A stretch of 64,000 nt of DNA from Magnetovibrio sp. (GCA_026196495.1 JAPHSY010000039.1:1-64000), one strand, 5' to 3'. Positions 47,572 through 57,334 are shown, counted from the first letter of the stretch. A program made the numbers and translations. Notes: generated from the sequence alone by a model not told the origin.

Positions 47572-47753
47572 ATCTTAGCACAAGCTCATGTTCATCTGGC
47601 ATAACACATGATATAGTCGCACAACCATAGGGACGCATATAGAACAAACAATCAACAAATAGGACATGCTAACGTACTCAATAATGCAGCATAAATTTGG
47701 CATTATTTTTCAAATTCAATTCTGTCTTTCATAAAAAGCATAGGAGAAATTGG

Positions 47754-48380
47754 ATGTTACCGAAAATTGCAAACAAACTCACAAGACATCACACGCCTTA
47801 TGACCTGCGAGCCGTAAATTTCCTGATTATTGACGACAATCCACATATGAGGTTTTTGGTTCGGCAGCTTCTTCACGTATTCGGTGTTCGCAATATCAGA
47901 GAAGCCGATGACGGAGCCCATGCACTGAAAATCCAAAAAATATTTCATCCCGATATTGCCATTTGCGACTGGTACATGTCGCCCTTAAACGGCATTGAAT
48001 TCACACGCATAATCAGAACATCTTCGGATATACGCAATCCATACTTACCCATTATCATGTTAACGGGATACACGGAACTTCATTTGGTTGAACAAGCCCG
48101 TGATGCTGGCATCGATGAATTTTTATCCAAGCCCATATCTGCTCACATGCTTTATGACCGTATCCTATCAATCATCGAAAAACGCAGACCGTTCATCAAA
48201 ACGGCCACCTATCATGGTCCAGACAGACGTCGTCACCATGATGAAACACCCTACAATGGGGTCGAACGACGCCTCAATAGCATGACCTCGACACATGAGG
48301 CTGTGCCTACAAACGATTTATTTGGCAATGTCGCCCTGTCGGCACAGAGCCATATAAATAGAAGACCATCACTTACATAA
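47754..48380 (+). CDS. CheY-like receiver protein with GPDRRR tail (copy 1)
   Basis: FLIIDDNPHMRFLVRQLLHVFGVRNIREADDG...DWYMSPLNGIEF...MLTGYTELHLVEQARDAGIDEFLSKPIS; likely start MLPKIANKL. Confidence 0.88.
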   Translation: MLPKIANKLTRHHTPYDLRAVNFLIIDDNPHMRFLVRQLLHVFGVRNIREADDGAHALKIQKIFHPDIAICDWYMSPLNGIEFTRIIRTSSDIRNPYLPIIMLTGYTELHLVEQARDAGIDEFLSKPISAHMLYDRILSIIEKRRPFIKTATYHGPDRRRHHDETPYNGVERRLNSMTSTHEAVPTNDLFGNVALSAQSHINRRPSLT

Positions 48381-48568: not shown

Positions 48569-49156
48569 ATGACATCCAGTACAGCAGGTCAACTCACTGC
48601 CTATGATCTTCGCGAACTCAGCGTACTGATAATTGATGACAATCAACACATGCGCTATCTGGTGCGCCAACTCCTTTTTGCTTTTGGCATTAAAAAAACG
48701 TTTGAGGCCGAAGATGGGGCAACGGCACTCCAAGCCTTGCAAAATTTTGAGGCCGACTTAGCAATTTGTGATTGGCACATGGCACCCTTAGATGGCATTG
48801 AATTCACACGCATGACCCGCAGGTCCGACGACACTGCAAATCCTTTTCTGCCCATCATTATGTTAACGGGACATACAGAGCTTCATCGTGTGGAAGAAGC
48901 ACGTGATGCTGGCGTTGATGAATTTCTCTCTAAGCCAATTTCCGCATCAAAACTCTATAGCCGCATTGTCAAAATCATTGAAAAACGCAGGCCATTTGTA
49001 CGCTCTCCCATATATTTAGGCCCCGATAGGCGTCGCCGCAGCCACAATCCCGCATTTCGGGGTGAAGAACGTCGCCAAGACATGCTAGATGATGAAGGCC
49101 CTGCCCCTGGGAACCTCTTTGCCAAAACTGTGATGCCATCACATCACGCACCTTAA
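48569..49156 (+). CDS. CheY-like receiver protein with GPDRRR tail (copy 2)
   Basis: VLIIDDNQHMRYLVRQLLFAFGIKKTFEAEDG...DWHMAPLDGIEF...MLTGHTELHRVEEARDAGVDEFLSKPISASKLYSRI; paralog of the previous gene. Confidence 0.92.
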   Translation: MTSSTAGQLTAYDLRELSVLIIDDNQHMRYLVRQLLFAFGIKKTFEAEDGATALQALQNFEADLAICDWHMAPLDGIEFTRMTRRSDDTANPFLPIIMLTGHTELHRVEEARDAGVDEFLSKPISASKLYSRIVKIIEKRRPFVRSPIYLGPDRRRRSHNPAFRGEERRQDMLDDEGPAPGNLFAKTVMPSHHAP

Positions 49157-50592: not shown

Positions 50593-51174
50593 ATGACTGC
50601 CAAAACAAAAAAAGCAGAACCAACCACCACACCCGTGGGCGGACGTATGCCTGGCGACCCAACAAAGGATGTGTTGGTCGAACGCATCATCCGCGTTGAT
50701 CAGGCAGGCGAATACGGAGCTGTACGCATTTACGAAGGTCAGTTGGCGGTTCTGGGCAAAGGCCCCAAAGGCGACATGATCCGCCACATGAAAGAACAAG
50801 AAGACGTCCATCTGGACACCTTCACCAAAATGGCATCCGAGCGCCGCGTACGCCCCACGGCCTTGATGCCATTATGGCACGTGGCTGGGTTTGCATTGGG
50901 TGCCGGAACAGCTCTGTTGGGTGAAAAAGCCGCCATGGCGTGCACCGTCGCCGTCGAAGAAACCATCGATGAACACTACCAGCACCAAATCGAAAAGCTT
51001 GGCGACGATGAAAAAGAGCTGCGCGAAAAATGTATCAAGTTTCGCGAAGAAGAACTAGAACACCGCGACATCGGCTATGAGCACGGTGCCGAACAAGCCC
51101 CGGCTTACCCACTGCTGAGCCGCGCCATTAAGATGGGTACCAAACTGGCAATTAATCTGTCTGAGAAGATTTAG
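50593..51174 (+). CDS. coq7: demethoxyubiquinone hydroxylase family protein Coq7
   Basis: RIIRVDQAGEYGAVRIYEGQLAVLG, MKEQEDVHLDTF, AVEETIDEHYQHQI, EELEHRDIGYEHGAE (diiron EXXH motifs). Confidence 0.95.
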   Translation: MTAKTKKAEPTTTPVGGRMPGDPTKDVLVERIIRVDQAGEYGAVRIYEGQLAVLGKGPKGDMIRHMKEQEDVHLDTFTKMASERRVRPTALMPLWHVAGFALGAGTALLGEKAAMACTVAVEETIDEHYQHQIEKLGDDEKELREKCIKFREEELEHRDIGYEHGAEQAPAYPLLSRAIKMGTKLAINLSEKI

Positions 51175-51184
51175 CCCCGAACAC

Positions 51185-52480
51185 TTATCCCCGAGTACCG
51201 GCAAAGCGTTTTCGGTTTATGAACTCGCTCATGGCTTTGTCCATAAGTTCAGATTCGGTCAGCAGCCTTTTGAGGTTTCTGGCGGAGCCCCCACGTTTTG
51301 TCATTTCCAGAGATTGCTTGACGATTTTTCTGATAACCTCGACCCCCTTGGGCGCCGCAATGTCTTGCTCAAAAAATTGACGTCCTAAACGGTCCCACAA
51401 ACCTTCGAGCATGCTCACACGCATATCGAACGGAAGGGGGCTCATCGCTTCCATGACTTTGTCATCAAGATATGGCAAAAAACCACGGATTTGATTAATT
51501 TCGCGCCCTGTCCAACGCCCTACTTCTATGACGACACTCGGGTTGGCTGTAAGAAGCATAGGAAAATGGCTCCCCATGTTCTTCTTCACCTGAGCAATGC
51601 GGGTTACGTACGTTTTCTTTTTAGAATTCTGGCCACTAACCGGCTTCTTTTCCTTCATTGTCCATGCACCAAATGCGCGGATAACTTCAGGATCCTGAAT
51701 GGACAAGATTTCCGGGCCAAGCGCCATAATTTTTGCACTGTGGTCTAACCCCTCAGCCACAGCGGTCATGAATTCAGGTTCCCAATTCAAAATTTCTGAA
51801 AAGTTCTTTCCTAAGGCCCGGCGCAAGGCCCGCACGAAACTGATCGGTTTGCCTTGAACAAGAACATCCATAAAGGAACTCTTCTGAACCAACAAAAGTT
51901 CGAGGTTGCCACCAAGTCCCATCTTCAGTTCTTTAATCGATCGCGGATCCAACTTAACCAATTGACGTGCCCCACGAAGCTCACGGACGTCTTTAACCTT
52001 TATCTTGCCCAAGTGATCGATAACGACCTTATCTTGATAAGAGGCGGCATTTTTTACAATAATTTCCATTGCCTGTTGAAGATATCGGTCATTCGCTTCA
52101 TTGACCGAATAACCACAACTTCCCACAGGACCCTCTGTTATCAAATGACCAGGATTACCATCAGCATCTAAACAACGGAACTCAATCACCCCCTCTTGCA
52201 AAGCAAGTTCGAACAGGCGCAAGCCGATCTCAATGGCAACATCGTCCTCTTCGATTTCAGCCAAGGTCCGCCCGACAAGCCGCAGCTTGGCTTTAGGGTT
52301 TTGACGAAGATAGAGCTCTTCCAATTTTTGCAACACGGGAAGGATATGATTTGCCACTGTGCGCTTAAGACGCAGGCGTTTAAGCAGCCCGACCTTGCTC
52401 CACATGGCTGTCGGCAACTCCCAGGGCTTCACCCCGTCTGTAGGGGTAACAACCACACGCATAGAACTAACGCCGCCCAT
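51185..52480 (-). CDS. uncharacterised ~430-aa protein (family copy A)
   Basis: 431 aa; paralogous along its length to the 53548-54831 product (WSKVGLLKRLRLKRTVANHILPVLQKLEELYL, EGPVGSCGYSVNEA, SMLEGLWDRLGRQFFEQ). Confidence 0.85.
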   Translation of the reverse strand: MGGVSSMRVVVTPTDGVKPWELPTAMWSKVGLLKRLRLKRTVANHILPVLQKLEELYLRQNPKAKLRLVGRTLAEIEEDDVAIEIGLRLFELALQEGVIEFRCLDADGNPGHLITEGPVGSCGYSVNEANDRYLQQAMEIIVKNAASYQDKVVIDHLGKIKVKDVRELRGARQLVKLDPRSIKELKMGLGGNLELLLVQKSSFMDVLVQGKPISFVRALRRALGKNFSEILNWEPEFMTAVAEGLDHSAKIMALGPEILSIQDPEVIRAFGAWTMKEKKPVSGQNSKKKTYVTRIAQVKKNMGSHFPMLLTANPSVVIEVGRWTGREINQIRGFLPYLDDKVMEAMSPLPFDMRVSMLEGLWDRLGRQFFEQDIAAPKGVEVIRKIVKQSLEMTKRGGSARNLKRLLTESELMDKAMSEFINRKRFAGTRG

Positions 52481-52698
52481 TTCACCTCCCCAGTGAATAG
52501 GTTCAACTTAAACATGATAAAAAGCTTCTATGGCTTGGGGTCTGGCAACCCTCTTGCGTTAATAAAACATTAACATTGCAACCCAACAGCGTCCAGTGCC
52601 CGAAACACAGCAAAAAAACAGGTTTTAAGGCAATGAGTTAAGTTTTTAACTCTCGGGCATATTCTATGATGAAAGCATGAGCTGCGTCGTTAGATTCG

Positions 52699-52791
52699 CT
52701 GATGGGGCTAAAAGATCAGTGCGAGAAGTTGAGATCGGATGGAATTAAGATGGGCTCCAAGTGGTTGATTGACCTGTCTGAGGAGATTTAG
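52699..52791 (+). pseudogene. degenerate 3' fragment of a second coq7
   Basis: In frame: LMGLKDQCEKLRSDGIKMGSKWLIDLSEEI-stop, versus coq7 KELREKCIKFREEE...[gap]...AIKMGTKLAINLSEKI-stop. Confidence 0.75.
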
Positions 52792-53363
52792 TTTAAATCG
52801 CCAGGCCCATTTAGCGGCTTATTCTTCTCATTTCTTGCGTGAATACCTCGTAAAATATCCGCTGCACTTCCTTGAGGCGATTGGTGCCTCATATTGCAAT
52901 CCGCTCCTTTTCGCCCTTTGTATACCCTAACAAGATAATCAACTTGCTCTTTATAAAGAGCAAGTTTCTTTAGAAGTTCCTGGGTATTTAGCTCAGAGCC
53001 AGTCTTACTTTCAGCATGTTTGCTAGTCGTGCCTTCAGATTCAACAGACAATGGATTGGCCACCTTACCAGCCATTAACAATCGGAAGTTTCGGTCTGAC
53101 TCCTTATCTTTACGTTTCTGATTTAAACGTTCTTCTTCATGACGGCCATATTGCTCATCAATATTTCCGATTATATTAGATACCAATGTTCTAATGACTC
53201 GATATAACCCGACCCCAAGACCAACACTTACCACTAATGCAATAAAAGAGACTGAAATTGCTAATGAATTTTGCACCAGTTCCATAGGGGTACGGCTTGA
53301 GACAAGCTCAAGCAAACCGCGTAGGATGATGGAAATTTCCCCCATCAAAGTCCCCCCAACCAT
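52788..53363 (-). CDS. uncharacterised single-TM protein with charged C-terminal domain
   Basis: 191 aa; TM ISVSFIALVVSVGLGVGLYRVI then a K/R/E-rich region; located between the two ~430-aa paralogs. Confidence 0.7.
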   Translation of the reverse strand: MVGGTLMGEISIILRGLLELVSSRTPMELVQNSLAISVSFIALVVSVGLGVGLYRVIRTLVSNIIGNIDEQYGRHEEERLNQKRKDKESDRNFRLLMAGKVANPLSVESEGTTSKHAESKTGSELNTQELLKKLALYKEQVDYLVRVYKGRKGADCNMRHQSPQGSAADILRGIHARNEKNKPLNGPGDLN

Positions 53364-53547
53364 AAAAAACCAACACTCACAGCTATTTCAGAAGCCTTGC
53401 AGGCATACACAATATGAAGTTAATGCAAGAAGAAATTATACCATATGTTGAGTTGGGGCAATTTTTTTAATAATAAATTTATCTTTTGCCATATCAATTA
53501 TACTGGTCATGCACAAAAATTAATAAAGGGCCATCTGGCTAATTAGA

Positions 53548-54831
53548 TCAGCCCGACACCCGTTTGCGCTTCAAGTAGTCACCCATGGAAGCATCCATCA
53601 GGTCCGATTGGGTGATGAGGTTCCTTAAGTTTTTCGCGGAATTGCCCTTTTCCATCATATCCATGGCTTGGTCGGTAATGTTTTTCACCACCTGAGCACC
53701 TTCGGGCTTCTTCAATTCATTTTCCACAAATTCACGCCCCAAGCGATCCCACAGCCCTTCCAGCATGCTCACTTGCATTTCAAAGGGCATCGGTGACATA
53801 ACTTCAATCACCTCACTACCCAGATGTGGTAAGAAGTTACGGATTTTGTCAATTTCTTGATTGCTCCAATTTCCAACAACCTTCACCACATTGGGACTGG
53901 CCGTCAGCAAAATGGAAAAACTCGCCCCCATCACTTCTTTCACTTGGGCAATGCGAGTGATGTATTTCTTTTTCTTTGAACTCTTACCCGATTTGGGTTT
54001 GACCTCTTTCATCGCCCAGGTGCCAAAGGCACGAATAACTTCTGGGTCTTCAATAGACAGCAGCTCCGGACCCATGGCAGTGATTTTCGCCCCATGGTTC
54101 AAACCTTCCGCCACAGCCGAAATAAACTCGGGATCCCATTTGAGAATTTGAGAAAAGTTCTTACCCAAAGCATAGCGCAGAGCGCGCAAGAACGTGATGG
54201 GCTTACACTTGTGCAAAATATCCAGATAGGCTTTGTCTTGAAGCAATAAGGGCTCTAAGTCGCCCTTTAGGCCTTGGCTCAGTTCCTTGATGGCAAGCGG
54301 GTCAAAGCGCACCAACTGGCGTGCTGCGCCCAGATCCTCAACCGTATTGATATCTAGGCGTTCCAACTGATTATAAATGGTCTTTTCAACGACCTGTTTG
54401 CCCTGTTGCAAAATGATCTGCACGGCTTTGTCGAGAAAATGGGCCTTTGCCTCTTCAATGCTGTAACCACAACGCCCCACTGGTCCATCCAAAATGACTT
54501 TTCCGGGTTTGCCCTTTTTTCCCTCGTTCTGAAATTCCAACAGACCTTCTTGTAAAGCTAAATCAAATAGATAGAGACAGGCCTCGATTGCCACATCATC
54601 TTTTTCAATTTCAGTAGCAGAACGTCCAACAATCCGGGGGGTGGCACCTAAGTGTTCTTTCAGATAGAGCTCTTCCAAGCTCTGTAGCACAGGCAGCACA
54701 TATTCTGTAACGGTGTGACTGAGGCGAATTCTGCGCAGCAAGCCAACCTTTGACCACAAACCCGCAGGCACCTCCCAGGCACGTTTGCCTGTTTTCGGTG
54801 TAATCACCACGCACTTACGACCTTCGGCCAT
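53548..54831 (-). CDS. uncharacterised ~430-aa protein (family copy B)
   Basis: 427 aa; paralogous to 51185-52480 (WSKVGLLRRIRLSHTVTEYVLPVLQSLEELYL, DGPVGRCGYSIEEA, SMLEGLWDRLGREFVEN). Confidence 0.85.
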   Translation of the reverse strand: MAEGRKCVVITPKTGKRAWEVPAGLWSKVGLLRRIRLSHTVTEYVLPVLQSLEELYLKEHLGATPRIVGRSATEIEKDDVAIEACLYLFDLALQEGLLEFQNEGKKGKPGKVILDGPVGRCGYSIEEAKAHFLDKAVQIILQQGKQVVEKTIYNQLERLDINTVEDLGAARQLVRFDPLAIKELSQGLKGDLEPLLLQDKAYLDILHKCKPITFLRALRYALGKNFSQILKWDPEFISAVAEGLNHGAKITAMGPELLSIEDPEVIRAFGTWAMKEVKPKSGKSSKKKKYITRIAQVKEVMGASFSILLTASPNVVKVVGNWSNQEIDKIRNFLPHLGSEVIEVMSPMPFEMQVSMLEGLWDRLGREFVENELKKPEGAQVVKNITDQAMDMMEKGNSAKNLRNLITQSDLMDASMGDYLKRKRVSG

Positions 54832-55000
54832 GCTTTTCCACCCTCACCGCGTGAACATCGCCAAAACCGTCATATTTTTAATTTTTTATTGGAACAGAAT
54901 CTCTGGCAACCGACCATAACTGAACATGAGAATAACACTTATGGACTAGCAAGGTCCATTCTGCATCTGCATGCATTGCCAAGGCTTAAAAGCTATGACG

Positions 55001-55231
55001 TTAGACCTTGATAATGGATTTGATCTTACCGCGATGCCGATTTGAACGTTCGGCAATTTGGTTGTCTTGATCCTGGATCGCTGTACGCGCTAAATCCAAC
55101 AGAGCATCACCATAAGATTCATCCAACTGGTCAACAGCTACCCGCCGGTTAGACGATAATGTGCCATCTTCATAGGTCACATTAAACGTCACGAATGTAG
55201 CAGGTTTGCTTTTAGATTTTTTGCGCGCCAT
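55001..55231 (-). CDS. small hypothetical protein
   Basis: 76 aa; MARKKSKSKPATFVTFNVTYEDGTLSSNRRVAVDQL... Confidence 0.6.
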   Translation of the reverse strand: MARKKSKSKPATFVTFNVTYEDGTLSSNRRVAVDQLDESYGDALLDLARTAIQDQDNQIAERSNRHRGKIKSIIKV

Positions 55232-55256
55232 TGGAATTCTCCAGATTGAAATTTAA

Positions 55257-55436
55257 TTAAGACACGCGAACATCAACTCGGTCGCCAAAGCTCTCTGTAA
55301 TAAGATTATGAGCATGACGGGTCATAATTGGATTTTCCTGTCGGCGGATTGTGAAGATGCACTTTCCCTCCGTTTGCGCGTGGGTTACAAAATTCTGCAG
55401 CCCGTATGTAATTAAAAATTTGTGTTCGTTACTCAT
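55257..55436 (-). CDS. small hypothetical protein
   Basis: 59-aa ORF below the track cutoff: MSNEHKFLITYGLQNFVTHAQTEGKCIFTIRRQENPIMTRHAHNLITESFGDRVDVRVS. Confidence 0.5.
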   Translation of the reverse strand: MSNEHKFLITYGLQNFVTHAQTEGKCIFTIRRQENPIMTRHAHNLITESFGDRVDVRVS

Positions 55437-55601
55437 TGTATATCCTTAGATCAATCCTCCACGACGAGTACATCCAGCAAAATACTGAGCAAGTCAGGGG
55501 ATTGAATAAAAAATGCTGAGAAGCCGGGCACAATGACCTATCGGCTCAGTCCTAAGACGACAACGCGTAGCCTGGGCACAAGGCCTGAGGCTTAGGCATC
55601 A

Positions 55602-55763
55602 TCACTCAGCGGTGATTGTTGTTTGATCCATATCACTCAACTCGGTTTTTTCTTCTTGATTGTCCCGAGCAAGTTTTTTGTCCGCAGCTCGCTTAGCCTT
55701 CTTTTCGGCTTTCAAGCGTTCACGTTCGCGGCGTTCAAAATCGTAGTTAGGCTTTCGAGCCAT
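55602..55763 (-). CDS. small Lys/Arg/Glu-rich protein
   Basis: MARKPNYDFERRERERLKAEKKAKRAADKKLARDNQEEKTELSDMDQTTITAE; start at the internal M rather than the track start. Confidence 0.7.
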   Translation of the reverse strand: MARKPNYDFERRERERLKAEKKAKRAADKKLARDNQEEKTELSDMDQTTITAE

Positions 55764-55816
55764 TATCATCCCTTTGGATGTTGGAGAACGCGCAATTGCA
55801 AGAACCACAGATGAAT

Positions 55817-55984
55817 CTAGATTGCTTTTTCAGCTTTTTGCTTCGCAAGACGAAGAGCACGCAAGCGTTCACGCTGGGCTTTCTTCTCTTTCAACGCGAT
55901 TTCTTTTTCAGCGCGAAGCCGTGAAGCTTTTCTTTGCGAGGTGGCAAGCTGTTGTTCCGACTTAGATTTTCCAAGATCAAACAT
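55817..55984 (-). CDS. small Lys/Arg/Glu-rich protein
   Basis: 55-aa ORF below the track cutoff: MFDLGKSKSEQQLATSQRKASRLRAEKEIALKEKKAQRERLRALRLAKQKAEKAI. Confidence 0.5.
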   Translation of the reverse strand: MFDLGKSKSEQQLATSQRKASRLRAEKEIALKEKKAQRERLRALRLAKQKAEKAI

Positions 55985-56117
55985 ATTCCATTCCAGTACG
56001 TCTTGATTGAAGACATCGGCAGCGGACTATGTTGGCCCGAAATCCTTACGGTATGCCGCACAAATGCGGAAAAGCAGCCGCTCCCGACCAAAATCGAGAG
56101 CGGCATGCTCAATCGAA

Positions 56118-56327
56118 TTAATCGATGACTTTGAGGTCTTCAGCAGAAGCTTTGCCGTTACGGCCTTCTTGAAGCTCATAAGTGACTTTTTGACCGTCGT
56201 TCAAAGTGCTCAAACCAGCACGTTCGACAGCAGAGATATGCACGAATGCATCGCCGGAGCCATCTTCAGGCTCGATAAAGCCATAACCTTTGGTCGGGTT
56301 GAACCATTTAACAGTACCTGTAGCCAT
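56118..56327 (-). CDS. cold-shock protein (CspA family)
   Basis: MATGTVKWFNPTKGYGFIEPEDGSGDAFVHISAVERAGL. Confidence 0.96.
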   Translation of the reverse strand: MATGTVKWFNPTKGYGFIEPEDGSGDAFVHISAVERAGLSTLNDGQKVTYELQEGRNGKASAEDLKVID

Positions 56328-56536
56328 TAGAATATTCCTTTTCTCTGGCATCATGACATGCGCACCACAGAGTGTTGCGCGGTGGTATAACGATCACAAT
56401 GTCAGGGGATAACTAAGTAGCTAAAAAGCGTACCAATAAGCTCAGCACACAAAACATTTGTATCACGTATGCCACATAAATGGCGTATATCCCGCTAAAG
56501 TCAATGATTTTAATATTTTCGTTTTATGAATATGCA

Positions 56537-57334
56537 TTAATTTTTGCGTTTTTTCACCAATCCGGCGATGACTCCGCGCATGGTGCGGACCTCTTGTTCG
56601 GTCATTCGGGCGCGTTGAAACATGTTGCGTAAGTTGCGGATCATGCCCGGTTTTTTGGCTTCAACGCCTAAAAAACCGCAGTCCGTTAATTCATGTTCCA
56701 AGTGATTAAACAGACCGACCAACTCTTCTTTGGTGGCGCGGCGGGTATCCAAGCGCACTTCATAGGTTTCATGAGGGCGATCATCAGCAGCCTGGAACCA
56801 CTCATACCCCATCAACAATACCGCCTGGGCCAAATTCAGAGATGTGAACCCTGGGTTCAATGGCACCATCAAGATACTATCGGCCAGCGCAATATCATCA
56901 TTGTGCAGACCAACCGCTTCTTTACCGAACAACACACCACACTGCACCCCTTGGCCGCGCTGCTCATGCATTTCCTGAGCGGCGCCGCGCGGTGTTAATA
57001 CATCCTTGGACATATCACGTGCGCGTGCCGTGGTGGCAAACACATGGCCCAAATCGGCAATGGCATCTGCCGTGGTCTCATAAACACGCGCATTGTCCAA
57101 CACCACATCGGCACCCGATGCCGTTTTGTAGGCCGCATCATTAGGCCAACCATCACGCGGCGCAACGATGCGCATATCCACAAGCGCACAATTCAGCATC
57201 GCACGAGCAACCATGCCAATGTTTTCACCCAATTGCGGTTCCACCAAAATGACTGCGGGACCACCTTCAGCAGCTTCAGATGCCGTAGATTTGGCGGGAC
57301 GGCGGTGTTTGGTTGAGGTCGGAGCGGGACACAT
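56537..57334 (-). CDS. trmJ: RNA methyltransferase, TrmH/SpoU family (TrmJ-like)
   Basis: VILVEPQLGENIGMVARAMLNCAL, LFGKEAVGLHNDDIALADSILMVPLNPGFTSLNLAQAVLLMGYE. Confidence 0.92.
   Translation of the reverse strand: MCPAPTSTKHRRPAKSTASEAAEGGPAVILVEPQLGENIGMVARAMLNCALVDMRIVAPRDGWPNDAAYKTASGADVVLDNARVYETTADAIADLGHVFATTARARDMSKDVLTPRGAAQEMHEQRGQGVQCGVLFGKEAVGLHNDDIALADSILMVPLNPGFTSLNLAQAVLLMGYEWFQAADDRPHETYEVRLDTRRATKEELVGLFNHLEHELTDCGFLGVEAKKPGMIRNLRNMFQRARMTEQEVRTMRGVIAGLVKKRKN

Follow-up and report, generated by a model that had tools for sequence, protein, structure and literature searches.

In a 64,000-nucleotide stretch of the genome of a Magnetovibrio sp. (GCA_026196495.1 JAPHSY010000039.1:1-64000; below, the window), the housekeeping gene coq7 has a second 3' end, a short stub lying between two homologous genes, A and B, that belong to an orphan protein family. 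The stub is too well preserved to be an unconstrained copy as old as the split between A and B, and the interval in which it lies, between coq7 and a trmJ-like gene, is a hotspot of variable cargo. On balance, we consider it somewhat probable that the stub is the seam left when one-sided recombination joined two alternative versions of the hotspot's content, with both cargoes being kept in series. If so, the locus is a clear candidate for a case in which both versions of what a core-gene hotspot can carry have been retained next to each other in a housekeeping setting.

A second coq7 3' end between two homologous genes

The features that carry the argument are as follows.
50593..51174, plus: coq7, intact, 193 amino acids (PF03232, E=4e-66)
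51185..52480, minus: gene A, orphan-family protein of 431 amino acids; 55% identical to B, 72% to its ortholog in the congener G005
52708..52740, plus: probable upstream portion of the stub, reading LKDQCEKLRSD; in frame and collinear with coq7 LREKCIKFREE
52744..52791, plus: stub of the coq7 3' end (IKMGSKWLIDLSEEI-stop) and putative seam of the recombination; 37/48 nucleotides identical to the coq7 tail
52788-53363, minus: open reading frame ORF191, 191 amino acids, with a hydrophobic, transmembrane-like segment and a charged tail as read from sequence; convergent with the stub and overlapping its stop codon
53548..54831, minus: gene B, orphan-family protein of 427 amino acids; closest relative by identity in G031 (another family), 58%

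The intact coq7 gene, which is conserved in 32 of the 41 genomes searched, and gene A are convergent, on the plus and minus strands respectively, and meet tail to tail with 10 base pairs (bp) between their ends. The stub and the coq7 tail form the top direct repeat of the region, at a spacing of 1617 bp. The 48 bp of the stub, stop codon included, give a local alignment score of 42, whereas 1000 shuffles reach at most 28 and the rest of the window at most 33, and the match runs exactly to the stop codon, in frame and on the coq7 strand. On these figures, 52744-52791 is a real fragment of the coq7 3' end. That the likeness arose by chance, with A and B having simply accumulated at a hotspot, might be argued from the shortness of the segment and its absence from all of the relatives (40/40) in a DNA search, but both the score and the ending of the segment make this very improbable. 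An earlier note on this DNA, made from the sequence alone, had drawn the degenerate coq7 tail over 52699-52791, with an internal deletion. The portion after the deletion proves solid, whereas support for the portion before it is moderate only, with 21 of 1000 shuffles scoring as well as the LKDQCEKLRSD peptide. The same note had placed the fragment upstream of B. It does lie between A and B, but it is found past the 3' end of B, which is read leftward, and 756 bp away from it; because ORF191 lies between the two, the stub is not directly beside B as coq7 is beside A.

The C-terminal E-x-x-H, present as EELEH in the intact gene, is a metal-ligand motif of Coq7. Compared with the full COQ7 protein (demethoxyubiquinone hydroxylase), the last 16 codons of the stub align to the C-terminus, but only about 16 to 31 codons are left in all, the ELEH-containing segment and the whole N-terminal part are gone, and neither a complete fold nor the set of diiron ligand motifs is found. 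Judging from what is left, the stub cannot be a functional Coq7. No other coq7 stub was found in the coq7-trmJ intervals of the relatives scanned, this one being the only example, and a trmJ 3' stub, looked for beside it, was likewise not found.

Ages of the gene pair and of the stub

The products of A and B are identical at 232 of 420 aligned residues (55%; 77% positive, zero gaps, E=2e-174) and are the only members of their family found in this 3.1-Mb genome; the earlier note was thus right in its coordinates and in calling them full-length homologs. They are not, however, each other's closest relatives. In a tree of 32 family members, A is sister to the protein of the congener G005 (100/100), B falls outside that pair (100/97), and a clade uniting A and B is rejected by the approximately unbiased (AU) test (p = 2e-7). 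By this branching order, the split between A and B is older than that between A and its congeneric ortholog. The same great age is seen at the fourfold-degenerate sites of A and B, where 28 of 112 are identical, which is the level of chance. Therefore, a copy of coq7 that was equally old and unconstrained would be unrecognisable. The stub is 77% identical to coq7, with a binomial probability of ~6e-14 for such a match at 25% identity, and therefore a free-running copy as old as the A/B split is excluded. The first of the two options that the earlier note had given as the simplest explanation, in which a unit of a coq7 tail plus gene was duplicated and the second coq7 then decayed, is thus not supported.

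The stub differs from the coq7 of this genome at 11 of 48 positions, and so does the coq7 tail of G005. Because of this equal distance and the 77% identity, the stub appears to be the end of a coq7 gene that lost its function only recently and that came from a lineage about as distant as a congener. The second option of the earlier note, recombination with a divergent allele, fits these numbers best. In place of a simple duplication, the locus thus presents a seam that can be dated, the stub and the A/B split being of different ages for a reason that is visible in the tree.

Proposed stacking of hotspot contents and its alternatives

On its right, the variable interval is bounded by a trmJ-like gene and, before it, a block of small open reading frames.
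55001..56327, minus: small-ORF block with a cold-shock protein gene (56118-56327) at its end (PF00313, E=1e-23)
56537..57334, minus: the trmJ-like gene, right edge of the interval; orthologs lie beside cimA, facing coq7, in relatives with both on one contig

We take the latter gene to be trmJ from its sequence. The distance from coq7 to trmJ ranges widely among relatives: 2-15 bp in G015, 44 in G006, 255 in G008, 620 in G003, 1417 in G012, 1815 in G004, 2423 in G002, 3311 in G007, 3430 in G010, and 5366 in the present genome. The cargo differs just as widely, from none in G015 to a chromate transporter (G002), a solute-binding protein (G012), a solute-binding protein with a pentapeptide-repeat protein (G010), or an amidohydrolase with a glutaredoxin (G004). 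In G005, a gene for an S26 signal peptidase (L078: 6641-7585) lies tail to tail with coq7, 11 bp from its stop, and the ortholog of A lies 147 bp from trmJ. The coq7-trmJ gap in this bacterial family is therefore a cargo hotspot, with contents that are different almost every time. From the position of A next to trmJ in G005, it follows that about 4 kb (52556-56536) are extra in the present genome; this DNA begins less than 190 bp from the stub and takes in the stub, ORF191, B, and the small-ORF and cold-shock block, up to trmJ.

That A and B are homologs, that a stub and a hotspot exist, how the tree branches, and that the ages disagree are all observed; from these we infer a recombination event and its direction. 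Two lineages would have carried different cargo between coq7 and trmJ, with coq7 facing A in the one and facing ORF191, followed by B and the cold-shock block, in the other. A DNA fragment with one version would then have recombined into a chromosome with the other, through homologous joining at one end (in coq7 or trmJ) and illegitimate joining at the other, within the final ~16-55 coq7 codons. The product would retain an entire coq7, the two cargoes one after the other, and, as a seam beside their old neighbour, the terminal codons of the second coq7. As for direction, A as the incoming version, anchored in coq7, would be marginally simpler. The overlapping stops of the stub and ORF191 make a tight tail-to-tail junction like that of coq7 and A here and that of coq7 and trmJ in G015; such tightness would be expected if this was the native downstream junction of a coq7 gene, which would make ORF191 the former neighbour of the coq7 from which the stub came. 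A single allele with A and without B is seen in G005.

A close parallel is provided by the orphan immunity-gene arrays of the type VI secretion system (T6SS) loci of Vibrio cholerae, where orphan genes are stacked behind displaced 3' ends and a process akin to homology-facilitated illegitimate recombination has been proposed (PMC5361080), a process that has itself been documented experimentally (PMC3240628). In those arrays (PMC5361080), as in the event proposed here, the new version comes to lie next to the old, a displaced 3' end would be kept together with the old downstream gene, and the suggested route combines homology on one side with illegitimate joining on the other. Unlike in those arrays, the stub here derives from the housekeeping gene coq7 and the cargo comprises two homologs of an uncharacterised family; no effector/immunity logic is implied.

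Several observations weigh against stacking. The stub is only 48 bp long, with a weak 33-bp part besides, and its source species cannot be placed. The residues KMG are common to the stub and the coq7 of this genome, whereas the other tails compared have K-F-G or other residues, which could mean that the stub is a local copy of the genome's own coq7. The G005 contig breaks between coq7 and A, leaving the arrangement there incomplete, and an allele with coq7, ORF191, and B alone was not found among the genomes searched. Finally, trees of the flanking genes do not show a foreign side: cimA groups with G005 (97/98), and the coq7 and trmJ trees are not decisive. The shared KMG would sit well with a different history, in which a site-specific or transposition-like event placed A, as a small cassette, at the 3' end of coq7 and in doing so doubled the coq7 tail, with B already downstream; the two tails indeed flank A in the manner of att-site direct repeats. 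Yet neither an integrase nor a transposase ORF could be recognised in the interval, no inverted repeats were found at its edges, and the supposed repeats are already 23% diverged. Moreover, the coq7-trmJ interval of G005 likewise holds A, and the sequence available there shows no stub; relatives of the family on plasmids or viral contigs were not found. We therefore regard a cassette as unlikely.

A duplication could still be upheld if the whole unit of coq7 plus gene was duplicated ancestrally, both coq7 copies long remained functional, and the second decayed only recently. This would account for the old A/B split alongside a well-preserved stub, and a candidate promoter motif common to A and B (described below) is in keeping with it. 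It is nonetheless improbable, more so than a cassette: A and B are not sisters, the stub is abutted by ORF191 rather than by B, and a redundant gene would have to be kept for long and then lost in all sampled relatives. Among the 41 genomes searched, a second coq7 match is present only in G017, where it is partial and on another contig. That match (G017:C1:4919-5260; residues 80-193, 78% identity), beside a full copy, could be an effect of a contig edge or contamination. Stacking of hotspot alleles thus remains the reading that we favour.

The orphan family and the neighbouring genes

Both A and B appear to be still under constraint, in agreement with the earlier note. Of the 47 positions with a conservation of 80% or more across the family, A keeps all 47 and B keeps 46, the exception being one L-to-I change. 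The dN/dS comparison that had been proposed between the copies gives a pairwise omega (the ratio of nonsynonymous to synonymous rates) far below 1, a value that is qualitative only because synonymous sites are saturated. Constraint may also reach the upstream regions.
52523..52555, minus: 33-bp block upstream of A, 100% identical in G005; synonymous sites in the gene itself are saturated between A and G005
52541..52550, minus: GGTTGCCAGA motif, beginning 70 bp before the start of A; exact-match search of the window
54902..54911, minus: GGTTGCCAGA motif, beginning 80 bp before the start of B; exact-match search of the window

Upstream of A, this genome and G005 align over 75 bp and then diverge. 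Within the 64-kb window, the motif has exact copies at these two sites only, each of them upstream of its gene and on that gene's strand. A tandem duplication that included upstream sequence was considered and rejected, as the regions upstream of A and B align only over the 10-bp motif. A CtrA-box-like TTAA-N7-TTAA (52559-52573) also lies upstream of A, possibly by chance because it is absent at the matching place in G005. An Rfam scan gave no match at the A and B genes.

The earlier note had recognised no family for the two proteins, and indeed no convincing match was found in Pfam, NCBIfam, PHROGs, or PADLOC, with nothing near the cut-off; 22 aligned family members run against Pfam gave the same result. 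Profile searches of the PDB returned only short or non-significant matches, the best of which covers a brief segment of a designed helical protein (E=0.0017). AlphaFold predicts all-helical folds for A, with a predicted local distance difference test (pLDDT) score of 87.7, and for a distant member of the orphan family from family f19 (92.5), and Foldseek with the two models finds no significant solved or viral relative (best E=0.31 and 0.052, respectively). Its best matches, all non-significant (E 0.05-1), are to helical-repeat proteins such as TALE, MTERF, and designed helical repeats, which are likewise all-helical; A and B nevertheless have no significant structural or sequence match to them, with template-modelling scores of at most ~0.35, and membership is unsupported.

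A profile search found the family in 53 of 317 Rhodospirillales genomes. Samples of the class (385 genomes) and the phylum (399), which overlap in part, gave matches only in Rhodospirillales genomes, and the named loci come from records titled Rhodospirillales, Rhodospirillaceae, Magnetospira, or Alphaproteobacteria. Sensitivity depended on the query: scanning genome contigs with A alone yielded nothing, a six-sequence alignment yielded 8 loci, and an alignment of 22 sequences proved too heterogeneous to be used for pattern scanning. On these searches, the family is uncharacterised, restricted to one order among the genomes searched, patchily retained, and without a solved fold. Being constrained, with a confidently predicted fold and no solved relative, it makes a reasonable target for structure determination.

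Most members have an isoelectric point of 8.5 or more and no strongly hydrophobic segment, and they look soluble. Apart from Arg37, the invariant positions are chiefly taken by structural residues (Gly, Pro, Trp, Leu), and few are polar; R37 and W273 are conserved at 100% and C122, which lies in a GxCG motif, at 93%. Such a pattern speaks against a conventional enzyme active site and would favour a role in binding or as a scaffold. As a tentative working guess, A and B may be non-catalytic helical-repeat adaptors whose ligand is a protein or else a polyanion, for instance RNA or DNA. No operon is common to the whole family among the loci compared, and therefore no function was read from the neighbourhood. 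Elsewhere, the neighbours include a helicase with Helicase_C_2 (f5, f6, and f16), a ComEC-like protein (G007), and an ATP-synthase epsilon gene (G031). In families f19 and f22 (L148 and other loci), the orphan gene is divergent from an adjoining operon with acyl-CoA dehydrogenase, thiolase, short-chain dehydrogenase, DsbA-like, and carboxyltransferase genes.

Another pair of family members is found in the Rhodospirillaceae metagenome-assembled genome (MAG) ARS1032 (L121: 6597-7988 and 7989-9278), head to tail and gapless. The presence of two members is therefore not unique to the genome studied here. The two proteins of that pair (463 and 429 amino acids) are each other's closest relatives, and therefore the pairing there arose independently of A and B. 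It is conceivable, if doubtful, that A and B are specialised subunits of a heteromeric pair in an order-specific cellular machine with a new all-helical fold, the pairing having arisen at least twice (here and in ARS1032). If this were true, the stacking of two alleles of one locus would be a route from a single-gene to a two-subunit function.

Among the neighbouring genes, ORF191 has a low G+C content at third codon positions (0.35), and no close homolog was found among 100 relatives, the only matches being at E ~1e-3; weak matches to YabA and a silicon transporter fell below the cut-offs and were ignored. The small-ORF and cold-shock block (54832-56536) is also present as a unit in several relatives and once more in this genome, on contig C15. 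Over its cold-shock gene lies a leader like the cspA thermoregulator (56074-56450, minus; RF01766), which scores 48.9 bits, below the gathering score of 78. Elsewhere in the window, two adjoining and similar response-regulator-like ORFs (47697-48380 and 48569-49156) match a G005 homolog at 61% and 71%.

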